Below are positions 5,947-31,995 of a stretch of 34,900 bases of DNA, piece after piece. Under the pieces are notes generated by a model, which had not been told where the DNA came from, searched no databases, and saw nothing but the letters and a program-made list of their open reading frames with translations. The DNA lies in NCBI GenBank assembly GCA_029933005.1, contig JAOZOY010000028.1, positions 1 through 34,900 of the forward strand. The letters run 5' to 3'. The first letter of the stretch is position 1; every line of letters starts with the position of its first letter. Source of the DNA: Deltaproteobacteria bacterium. GTDB taxonomy: Bacteria > Desulfobacterota > Desulfobulbia > Desulfobulbales > SURF-16. Position numbers and translations under genes: made by a program.

Positions 5947-6023
5947 TGGTGCGCCCAGCAGGATTCGAACCTGCGACCTACGGCTTAGAAGGCCGGTGCT
6001 CTATCCAGCTGAGCTATGGGCGC
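5947..6023 (-). tRNA. tRNA-Arg (anticodon TCT)
   Basis: Read on the minus strand, a full cloverleaf is present: acceptor GCGCCCA/TGGGCGC, D stem GCTC/GAGC, anticodon loop CTTCTAA with anticodon TCT, T arm GCAGG-TTCGAAT-CCTGC, discriminator A and encoded CCA (5947-5949). It reads AGA and AGG arginine codons. The outermost anticodon-stem pair (positions 27 and 43) is C-U and does not pair; the other four pairs are good. It is convergent with the helicase gene. Confidence 0.95.
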
Positions 6024-6577: not shown

Positions 6578-6612
6578 ATGTCATTTACTTAAGCTTTGGA
6601 TATCTCCCTAGT
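6578..6612. repeat. Dispersed 20-bp repeat, copy 2
   Basis: Bases 6578-6597 repeat 787-806 with one mismatch. The looser similarity that follows ends exactly at the left terminus of the MITE-like element at 6613. Confidence 0.55.
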
Positions 6613-6826
6613 ACTGCCCTTTACCCACAAGTTTAAGCACACAAGGAAACATTAATGCCTGTTTATACGTTATTTTGCATAAATTGGTCCTCTTGGCACC
6701 TCCTCCCCGAATATATTTATCGGGGATCCAGAAGATTTTTAACCCTGATGGATCCCCGATAAAAGCACTCGGGAATGATGATAGCGGCGATGACTCCTGT
6801 ATTATGACTTATGGGTAAAGGGCAGT
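6613..6826. mobile_element. MITE-like element, 214 bp, perfect 15-bp terminal inverted repeats
   Basis: ACTGCCCTTTACCCA at 6613-6627 is the exact reverse complement of 6812-6826. After one mismatch the match runs four more bases (AAGT), giving a 20-bp terminal repeat with one difference. The flanks are CCTAGT (6607-6612) and CCGAGT (6827-6832), a possible 6-bp target duplication with one change. Inside is a second, perfect 14-bp stem (6716-6729 with 6750-6763, core ATCGGGGATCC). There is no coding capacity for a transposase, so it would be non-autonomous. The cognate transposase family is not recognised. The right end lies 83 bases before umuD. Confidence 0.6.
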
Positions 6827-6867
6827 CCGAGTCAGCAAAATTCGGAGAAATCCTTAAAGAAAGGACA

Positions 6868-6909: not shown

Positions 6910-7353
6910 ATGCAACTGAGCAAAGATCAGACAATCGCCCGGATTTATTCCTTTGAAAAACGGATCAAGGTCGTGCGCCCCCTCTTTTTAAGCGGCGTCT
7001 CAGCAGGATTTCCATCGCCGGCCGATGATTATATCGACCGGGATCTTGATCTCAACGAACATCTGATCACCAATCCAGCCGCCACATTTTTTGTCCGGGT
7101 GGCCGGTGATTCCATGACCGGGGCCGGTATCAACAATAACGACATCCTCATTGTCGACCGCTCCATTGCACCGATTTCCGGCAAAATCGTCATTGCGGTC
7201 ATCAACGGCGAATTGACGGTAAAACGACTGATCAAGACCGAAACCAATTGCCGGCTTGTCGCAGAAAATCCGGACTATTCCGACATTGAAATCAGCGGAG
7301 AGATGGAACTTGAAATTTGGGGCGTAGCCACCAGCGCCATTCATGCCTTATGA
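6910..7353 (+). CDS. umuD: UmuD, SOS translesion polymerase accessory protein / self-cleaving protease
   Basis: A 147-residue S24-family protein. It has the RecA-stimulated self-cleavage site Ala32-Gly33 in VSAGFPSP, the catalytic serine Ser68 in AGDSM and the catalytic lysine Lys105 in TVKRL. The 37-residue spacing between serine and lysine equals that of E. coli UmuD. In the family, RecA filaments trigger removal of the N-terminal arm to give UmuD', which joins UmuC as DNA polymerase V. The gene lies directly upstream of umuC; the 88-base spacer is filled by a dispersed repeat. Regulation by LexA is expected from the family but no box was identified. The ribosome site before the ATG is weak. 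Confidence 0.93.
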   Translation: MQLSKDQTIARIYSFEKRIKVVRPLFLSGVSAGFPSPADDYIDRDLDLNEHLITNPAATFFVRVAGDSMTGAGINNNDILIVDRSIAPISGKIVIAVINGELTVKRLIKTETNCRLVAENPDYSDIEISGEMELEIWGVATSAIHAL

Positions 7354-7358
7354 TAAGC

Positions 7359-7436
7359 ATTCACCAGCACCTCACGGAGTCTTCGCTTACAAAACGAGGG
7401 TTTTCGTAAAGTTGTATTTCCCAGATGAACGGTTAC
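7359..7436. repeat. Deletion derivative of the hairpin repeat, filling the umuD-umuC spacer
   Basis: Bases 7360-7390 match the reverse complement of 25657-25687 at 30 of 31 positions. Bases 7399-7434 match the reverse complement of about 25485-25521 with a few differences and one indel. The roughly 135 bases between these two blocks in the recA-cinA copy are absent here. The ends (TTCACC and TGAACGGTTAC) are the same termini as in the long copy. Confidence 0.65.
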
Positions 7437-7441
7437 GCGTT

Positions 7442-8743
7442 ATGAAAAAAAGGATCTTCGCCCTGGTGGACTGCAACAACTTCTATGTCTCCTGCGAACG
7501 GCTCTTTAACCCGAAACTCGCCCACAGGCCGGTTGTAGTCCTGTCCAACAACGACGGCTGCATCATTGCCCGCTCCAACGAGGCCAAGGCGCTGGGAATC
7601 AATATGGGAACCCCCTATTTCAAGGCCAAAAACTTCCTGCACCGCCACCGGGTCAAGGTCTTTTCCTCCAACTATCCCCTCTACGGAGACCTGTCCCGGC
7701 GGGTAATGACCACCCTGCAACAGCTTGAACCGGAGATGGAGATTTACTCCATTGACGAGGCCTTTCTCCGATTGCCTCCGGATTCCGGCATGAATCTGAA
7801 CATTCTGGGCCGGCAAATCCGGACCACGCTGAAACAACATACCGGCATCCCGGTTTCCATTGGCCTCGGTTCCACCAAGACCCTTGCCAAAATCGCCAAC
7901 CGCTTTGCAAAAAAATTTCCTGAATACAACGGTCTACTCGACTTGACCGCTGTTGATCCCGATCCATTTCTGAATCGCTGCGAGATCAACGATGTCTGGG
8001 GCATCGGCCGCGGTCATGCCGAACGACTGAGAGCGCGGGGTGTGCATACAGCCCTTGATCTTACCAGGCGTGATGACGGCTGGATACGGAAACAACTCAC
8101 TGTCACCGGCCTGCGCACCGCCATGGAACTGCGCGGCATCTCCTGCATCAGTCTTGAAAAAGAAGGAAAGAAAAAGTCGATTTCAAGCTCGAAATCCTTT
8201 GGCTATCAGGTGGAAACGCTTAACGAATTACGAGAGGCATTGGCCACCTATATCACCCAGGCGGCGGTCAAACTTCGTCTTCAGCAATCAACGACCGGCT
8301 GCCTGCAGGTCTATCTGACCACCAACCGCTTCAGTAAAACTCAAACTCTTTACGCGACCAGGGAAACAATCAACCTAGCCGAACCTACTGCGAATACCGG
8401 CACATTAATCAAACACGGACTGGAGAGATTGCAAAAAATCTACAGACCTGGCCTGCGTTACCAGAAATGCGGAGTTGTGCTCACCAATCTGGTTCCGGCC
8501 AAAAGCCGACAGCTCAATCTCTTTTTTAAGCCGGACAAAAGACAAAGCGAACTGATGGCCGCAGTTGACAGAATCAACACGCGCTGGGGTCGGCATACCA
8601 TCCAGCACGCGGCAGCCGGTTTTACCAAGCCATGGCAGCACCGGCAGGAGAAAAAATCTCCGGCATATACAACACAATGGCAGGATCTGCCGATGGTCAA
8701 GGCCTCATGGCCCGATTCCCTGCTGCCAGATACTTTCAGGTAA
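7442..8743 (+). CDS. umuC: UmuC, translesion DNA polymerase V catalytic subunit
   Basis: A 433-residue Y-family polymerase of UmuC type (E. coli UmuC is 422). Metal-binding acidic residues are visible: Asp10 in ALVDCNNFY and Asp105-Glu106 in YSIDEAF. The palm and fingers contain SNNDGCIIARS near 38-48 and the thumb contains IGLGSTKTLAKIA near 140-152. A helix-hairpin-helix (VWGIGRGHAERL) lies near 187-198 and the little finger occupies about 240-360. The frame opens earlier, at 7343, but those first 33 residues are encoded by the dispersed repeat and overlap umuD. The ATG at 7442 gives the family's normal N-terminus, so it is preferred even though no ribosome site is obvious. It acts with UmuD' and RecA to copy past lesions. 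Confidence 0.92.
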   Translation: MKKRIFALVDCNNFYVSCERLFNPKLAHRPVVVLSNNDGCIIARSNEAKALGINMGTPYFKAKNFLHRHRVKVFSSNYPLYGDLSRRVMTTLQQLEPEMEIYSIDEAFLRLPPDSGMNLNILGRQIRTTLKQHTGIPVSIGLGSTKTLAKIANRFAKKFPEYNGLLDLTAVDPDPFLNRCEINDVWGIGRGHAERLRARGVHTALDLTRRDDGWIRKQLTVTGLRTAMELRGISCISLEKEGKKKSISSSKSFGYQVETLNELREALATYITQAAVKLRLQQSTTGCLQVYLTTNRFSKTQTLYATRETINLAEPTANTGTLIKHGLERLQKIYRPGLRYQKCGVVLTNLVPAKSRQLNLFFKPDKRQSELMAAVDRINTRWGRHTIQHAAAGFTKPWQHRQEKKSPAYTTQWQDLPMVKASWPDSLLPDTFR

Positions 8744-25481: not shown

Positions 25482-25694
25482 GTGAAACCGTTCACCGGGG
25501 TCTACAAAATTACGAAAACCACGATCTGTAATCGTTTACCAGTGCCACAGATTCGGAGTCTCGTTCCTCGCTTACCGGTTCATTCGGAGTCTGCGCTTAC
25601 CTGATTTTGGCAGACACCGCTTCGCTGTTATAGCCCCTCTATACGACAAGGCTCAGGTAAGCGAAGACTCCGTGAGCTGCTGGTGAACGATTAC
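25482..25694. repeat. Long copy of a dispersed hairpin repeat family
   Basis: An element of about 213 bases with CGTTCACC at both ends in inverted orientation (25489-25496 and complement 25682-25689). The inner arms at 25585-25604 and 25653-25672 pair at 19 of 20 positions (core GTCTKCGCTTACCTGA). A third arm-like block lies at 25551-25580. Related copies are at 31650-31765 and 7359-7436, with a partial copy at 1-25. It fills most of the 423-base gap between recA and cinA. No open frame or transposase is inside. Confidence 0.7.
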
Positions 25695-31558: not shown

Positions 31559-31995
31559 AAATCTCGTAAAAACAACAAATTTAACACGGAGCGCCCAGAG
31601 CTCACTAAGGAGAAAGCTAATGACCATTTCATAACAAACTATAGAAATAGTAACCTGTTCGTTCGCAGTCTGCGCTTACCTGATTTTGGCACACCGCTTC
31701 GCTGTTATAGTCCCTCTAAGCGATAAGCGACAAGGCCCAGGTAAGCGCAGACTCCGAACGGGCGAAGAGGAGAGGCCTTTAACTTCCTGGCTGAGATTTT
31801 ACAAAAAAGGGAAAAAGAATTATATGATGCATGAATAATTCGCTTAAACGCCGGAATACCGGCCCGACTCCCCAGACAAGACACAGGGGGCAGCAGCCAT
31901 TTTCACAGTGAGCAAAATCGTGATTATTATCCCGTCATTCAAAGCGGACGCAGAGACACGGAATTTCTGATAATCTCTATGCCTTTGTGAGACTG
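31559..31995. other. Intergenic region with hairpin repeat
   Basis: Some 437 bases between the U32 gene and the convergent FKBP gene. It contains the repeat at 31650-31765, a small GCCGG-AATA-CCGGC dyad near 31851, and a good ribosome-site/ATG combination at about 31610-31623 that opens only a four-codon frame. No U-tract terminator was found for the U32 transcript. No gene is supported. Confidence 0.5.
31650..31765. repeat. Second hairpin repeat copy
   Basis: The arms GTTCGCAGTCTGCGCTTACC (31661-31680) and 31740-31759 pair at 19 of 20 positions. The loop between them (TGATTTTGGCA...ACCGCTTCGCTGTTATAG...CGACAAGG) is nearly the same as the loop at 25601-25652. It is in the same orientation as that copy and lies downstream of the U32 gene. 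Confidence 0.7.

Follow-up and report, generated by a model that had tools for sequence, protein, structure and literature searches.

The spacer between umuD and umuC carries an 84-bp non-autonomous element (MITE) at positions 7353 to 7436 of the window, the whole 34,900-nucleotide stretch that was analyzed, which is one contig of a 3.07-Mb genome assembled in 164 contigs. With a probability of about 0.87, the spacer is a MITE, most likely of IS66 type, that inserted into GCCTTATG, at a site where umuD and umuC, when empty, overlapped as ATGA. The case is real and neatly resolved, a MITE in an operon junction, and is ordinary in kind; its interest lies in the duplication of a start codon, the nested units of the family, and a possible link to druA. 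The features concerned are the following.

6910 to 7353, plus strand: umuD (Peptidase_S24), with the stop codon TGA at 7351 to 7353.
7343 to 7441, plus strand: putative in-frame open leader before umuC, from ATG 7343; an extended UmuC is possible.
7345 to 7352, plus strand: left copy of the target duplication, GCCTTATG.
7353 to 7436, plus strand: MITE of 84 bp with ends ATAAGCATTCACC ... GATGAACGGTTAC.
7353 to 7390, plus strand: left-end module of 38 nt, equal to a hand-made family consensus at 35 of 38 positions.
7391 to 7436, plus strand: right-end module of 46 nt, equal to a 58-bp family member (L130) at 35 of 46 positions.
7437 to 7444, plus strand: right copy of the target duplication, GCGTTATG (7/8), which ends in the umuC start codon.
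7442 to 8743, plus strand: umuC (IMS, IMS_C, and DUF4113), with the start ATG 7442 placed by alignment with relatives.
25486 to 25694, minus strand: long family copy of 209 bp between recA and cinA, without a clear target duplication (5/8 at best).
31653 to 31756, minus strand: inner part of a family copy, in which the scan found no pair of ends.

The hallmarks of a MITE were found together at the junction, namely, a length of 84 bp without a transposase gene, inverted ends, a duplication of fixed length, and membership in a multicopy family. The ends differ from the 15-nt family pattern GTAAYCGTTYACCRG by three mismatches on the left and two on the right, and the 8-bp duplication, equal at 7 of 8 positions, borders the element exactly. 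The first-pass annotation had placed a repeat at 7354 to 7441; a repeat does lie there, with its borders at 7353 and 7436 instead, the segments 7345 to 7352 and 7437 to 7444 being the duplication copies that had been missed. The earlier reading as a repeat was thus correct and incomplete, what it described being a mobile element that has inverted ends and is flanked by an 8-bp duplication, which keeps the umuC start and leaves both genes intact.

The umuDC copy lacks the interior of the longer family members, and its left-end module runs straight into the right-end module at CGCTTAC, which occurs in both modules. The left block (7354 to 7390) was 92% identical over 37 nt to the inverted recA-cinA copy (25657 to 25693), and its matches to other genome copies reached E values down to 7.3e-12. 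The right block (7391 to 7436) agreed at 25 of 46 positions with the recA-cinA-type consensus, a weaker match than that on the left, and with the 58-bp member at the 35 of 46 given above; neither score was reached in any of 20,000 shuffles. The two termini of the recA-cinA repeat stand back to back with the interior gone, as had been noticed earlier. The search of the own genome, which scored 40 of 102 candidates, returned at least 35 matches, namely, the element itself, 32 to the left block (84 to 100% identity, 21 to 48 nt), and 2 to the right block (78 to 79%), and these at least 32 other left-block copies bear out the description of the spacer as a shortened copy of a dispersed repeat. Within the same scored candidates, the 84-bp form was present in one copy only. 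In the plasmid collection the 84-bp sequence had no match at E 1. Ordinary intergenic sequence resembling the repeat by chance would agree with the spacers of more than 60 nt seen in other lineages (12 of 68) and is extremely improbable given the E values of the left block, the right-block scores beyond 20,000 shuffles, and the inverted ends and duplication lying in register. A structured RNA was also considered and rejected, since the only Rfam match at the gathering score over the whole window was a tRNA at 5950 to 6023, and the fold of the element was no better than that of shuffles.

Removal of the element and the right duplicate gave the empty site GCCTTATGAAAAAAAGG, in the context ...CATGCCTTATGAAAAAAAGG..., in which the umuD stop and the umuC start overlap as ATGA; the products of this site would be a UmuD ending in ...AIHAL and a UmuC beginning with MKKRIFALVD. 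At the occupied site the left duplication contributes its final TG to the umuD stop TGA, and the element contributes its first base, which is A where the family usually has G; with G in this place, umuD would gain one codon and stop at TAA. Because TTATG stands on both sides after the duplication, umuD and umuC both survived: the duplication preserved the umuC ATG (7442) and the umuD stop, and the two genes are intact, both of them open and matching their Pfam families.

In the two closest umuDC-bearing relatives (L062 and L063, 70% and 69% UmuC identity), the genes overlap by 4 bp as GTGA, which resembles the reconstructed empty site and upholds the earlier claim that an insertion separates the two genes. 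The nearest named records by UmuC were metagenome genomes of Desulfobulbaceae (L287 and L288), which seem to correspond to the L062 and L063 loci, and the same-genus genome G001 (77% complete) gave only a distant UmuC match (E 1.2e-25, 30% identity). The comparison was extended to 80 named loci, with umuD upstream in 69 and a readable start in 68. In these 68 loci the umuD-umuC spacing ranged from -23 to 687 nt, with 17 loci at -4, 25 at 0 or less, and 12 above 60 nt; in genus g5 of the same family, spacers of 58 to 66 nt were found in four loci (L066, L067, L069, and L070). By these counts an overlap is common and wide spacers are no rarity, and the statement that the two genes are normally closely linked applies to the closest relatives and is weak for the named loci at large. 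The same spacer was not seen in relatives without the repeat: none of the 69 named umuDC junctions contained the first 13 nt of the end pattern at up to 1 mismatch; the best match there had 2 mismatches and lay in one 243-nt spacer.

The family is large. With up to 2 mismatches, the end pattern occurred at 328 genome sites (166 + 162), compared with 27 (14 + 13) for the reversed control. Pairs of GTAAYCGTTYACCRG ends were sought in 94 stretches, 92 around copies and 2 from the window, with places taken from the own-genome matches and the first 100 of the 328 end sites, which makes them a sample and no census. No pair was found in 42 of these stretches when each end was allowed up to 3 mismatches. 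Elements were accepted with up to 5 mismatches per end and a sum of up to 7, together with a duplication of at least 7/8, or of 6/8 where the ends had up to 3 mismatches. This gave 42 elements of 55 to 267 bp in 42 stretches and none in the other 52. The duplications were 8/8 in 32 elements, 7/8 in 7, and 6/8 in 3, so that 39 elements had at least 7/8, against 2 hits in total from eight shifted controls. The target bases of the 42 elements were 69% A+T. In the empty sites, a spanning ORF of at least 100 amino acids was absent in 23 and present in 19, ORFs being predicted frames throughout; in 7 of the 19 the element lay up to 8 bp from the ORF end (L151, L193, L188, L178, L148, L156, and L181) and in 5 it lay 43 to 128 bp inside (L152, L162, L186, L130, and L176). 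The umuDC site fits a family that is often found between reading frames or at their edges.

The build of the family is modular. Eleven of the 42 elements measured 55 to 58 bp, 8 of them with perfect duplications, and 8 of the 11 short units agreed with an end of a longer member at no fewer than 48 of 56 to 58 positions, the other three at 37 to 39. Inside the right end of many longer members there is a further end-like site, close to GTAAACGTTTAC and almost identical when read on either strand, and the simplest reading is that this near-palindromic inner site can serve as an end. A full-length element may have inserted and later been shortened in place by deletion between the two CGCTTAC words, the 84-bp form never having moved, and we give this variant an even chance. 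It agrees with the occurrence of CGCTTAC in both modules, with the worn ends of the umuDC element, and with the own-genome matches, which all lay within positions 39 to 92 or 85 to 139 of the query, none spanning both and no second copy having the same left-right join. That search scored only 40 of the 102 candidates, however, and the perfect duplications around elements of 55 to 58 bp show that very short forms are mobile, so that the 84-bp form could have inserted as such.

The IS66 family is characterized by ends beginning GTAA and by an 8-bp target duplication, and the likely partner transposons of the MITE family combine an IS66-type transposase with a druA-like gene (PF14236). In the own genome, one locus (L212) consists of a family end followed by a truncated druA, and another (L120) has both ends, a 7/8 duplication, and two druA pieces 92 to 93% identical to L212; L120 alone among the 42 elements contained detectable pieces of druA/IS66 genes. 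A search with the L212 fragment through 257 genomes of the order found relatives in 41. At L277 and L272, both of the same order, two copies of GTAACCGTTCACCGGG enclose a druA-like gene together with an IS66-family transposase (NF033517). Matches to NF033517 above the cut-off were obtained in L277, L272, L281, and L234, and to PF03050 also in L279, L286, L274, and L217. The same gene pair with divergent ends and perfect 8-bp duplications was found in L234 (duplication ATTTTATT) and L286 (GATTCTTG), both of which have the GTAA ends together with the duplication. The ends alone were seen in L277, L279, L272, and L281; no 8-bp duplication was present at the first three, which are complete with the same or nearly the same ends, or at L281. 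Comparison of 15 ORFs beside druA-like genes with Pfam gave PF03050 in 9 (L213, L217, L228, L277, L279, L272, L286, L281, and L274), where L228 is the L234 element and L213 a fragment upstream of druA. The remaining ORFs matched DDE_Tnp_1_assoc in two cases (L215 and L216) and UPF0236 in one (L219), with two further UPF0236 matches below the cut-off (L218 and L220) and no transposase match in one (L284).

Between the MITEs and these transposons, the common sequence is short. In 30 of the 42 elements it was restricted to 15 to 25 terminal nucleotides held in common with druA-IS66 transposons or L212, and 11, the umuDC copy included, had no match to autonomous elements at E 0.01, so that the umuDC element is linked to them by way of its family. 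The own genome yielded no complete druA-IS66 transposon, both of its druA pieces being partial; several family copies stand at contig ends, and the assembly may lack a complete partner. The IS66 elements of the own genome were rejected as the source, all three PF03050 pieces (L038, L039, and L040) being incomplete. L038, the only one of them that could be assigned, shares 69% identity across 189 residues with an IS66 transposase (L091) whose genome gave no PF14236 match, and the likely end of L038, judged visually, is GTAAGCGC, which differs from the family ends. Twelve of 58 genomes had at least 20 end sites; four of these (G001, G026, G038, and G053) had neither PF14236 nor PF03050, some genomes being incomplete, and G002, G010, and G023 had PF14236 without PF03050. 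In other families of the order, G024, G026, G038, and G053 contained 65 to 213 end sites at up to 1 mismatch and no PF14236 match. Judged from ends and gene content, druA-IS66 transposons are the likely source or mover of the umuDC MITE family. We call the partner likely and not proven because of the duplication missing at L277, L279, L272, and L281, the end-rich genomes without the genes, and the lack of a complete partner in the own genome.

The druA-like genes were also observed beside other types of transposase, at L215 and L216 (DDE_Tnp_1_assoc) and at L218 and L219 (UPF0236, L218 just below the cut-off). With such varied neighbors, the druA-like gene may be common to different transposon families. 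A separate 134-bp MITE with ends GTAACCGATCACGGGG and duplication AGCGCATG was seen at L283:3787-3920, inside a druA-IS66 element with ends GTAACCGATCAGGGGG. PF14236 is presumably the family once named DUF4338. One published study terms DUF4338 a GNAT-like domain (PMC10853773). The druA-like proteins of L219, L271, L272, and L277 gave weak matches to the Mom family (E 3e-4 to 3e-3, below the curated cut-off). A role of the druA-like gene in transposition draws on this GNAT-like naming and these Mom matches and on nothing more. We offer it tentatively, as part of an idea that is rather unlikely as a whole: the family would consist of nested units, the near-palindromic inner end letting the transposase take either a 55- to 58-bp unit or the whole element, with units little longer than two ends spreading alone and IS66-family transposons as the driving force; the druA-like gene of these transposons, which may be remotely related to Mom and GNAT proteins, would serve transposition rather than phage defence.

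The insertion can be pictured as follows. Before it, the umuD stop and umuC start would have overlapped as ATGA. A short non-autonomous element with GTAA...TTAC inverted ends, mobilized in trans by a transposase, would have entered GCCTTATG at the end of umuD, with duplication of these 8 bases. The candidate is an IS66-family transposase, such as those of L277 and L272, acting on GTAACCGTTCACC ends. TTATG would have been left on both sides, umuD stopping at a TGA formed with the first base of the element and umuC starting at its ATG. Shortening to the modules joined at CGCTTAC may have taken place either before or after insertion.

As the first-pass annotation reported, the umuC frame is open from 7343 through the repeat; UmuC may be extended, starting at ATG 7343, or its coupling may be weaker. 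One could suppose that the element was kept for its action on umuC, the 33-residue leader that begins just before the umuD stop linking UmuD and UmuC translation; the frame is open throughout and in frame with umuC, and by eye there is no clear Shine-Dalgarno word ahead of ATG 7442. We consider this improbable. Chance alone often yields an open frame of 28 codons (about one in four by our estimate), relatives start at the position of ATG 7442, and the RNA fold of the element was no better than that of shuffles (z +1.23, with 183 of 200 shuffles being equally or more stable). The single promoter-like site (9/12) lies across the left border, with a shuffle average of 0.3. A promoter or terminator supplied by the element was likewise rejected, on the strength of that one site at the border and the absence of a terminator-like site on the plus strand.

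Immediately upstream of umuD, at 6608 to 6831 of the window, there is a second dispersed inverted-repeat element; it has the ends CTGCCCTTTACCCA, measures about 220 bp, and has at least 19 genome matches, itself included, with 94% identity on contig C8, 93% on C47 and C121, and 92% on C35. Together with the MITE at 7353 to 7436, it leaves umuDC flanked and split by two repeat families. The umuDC junction illustrates that a mini-transposon can enter an overlapping gene pair and break neither gene, since its own target duplication provides a second copy of the start codon. The suggested connection of a large MITE family with IS66-type transposons that contain a druA-like gene, otherwise classed as anti-phage defence, gives a testable idea of what this gene does. 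Among the titles and abstract beginnings of the literature matches listed, which took in few subscription papers, no IS66-type MITE and no druA in an IS66 element was found.

ISDge4 of the ISBst12 group of the IS66 family has the end GTAACTGCTCAGCA and an 8-bp repeat (PMC12898284), and it has in common with the present case an end beginning GTAAC, the 8-bp duplication, and the IS66-type DDE transposase of the likely partners. In contrast to that group, the likely partners add a druA-like gene (PF14236) beside the transposase gene, and the spacer itself encodes nothing. The DruA protein of the Druantia system belongs to the same Pfam family, PF14236, as the accessory gene of the transposons; compared by this gene alone, the difference is that the druA-like gene here lies inside transposons and adjoins the transposase gene. 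The umuDC family is like the bacterial MITEs mobilized in trans by IS transposases in being short and gene-free, with ends in common with autonomous elements, a duplication of fixed length, and many copies, whereas it differs from them in its modular build, with a second near-palindromic inner end (GTAAACGTTTAC) and 55- to 58-bp units that stand alone with duplications of their own.
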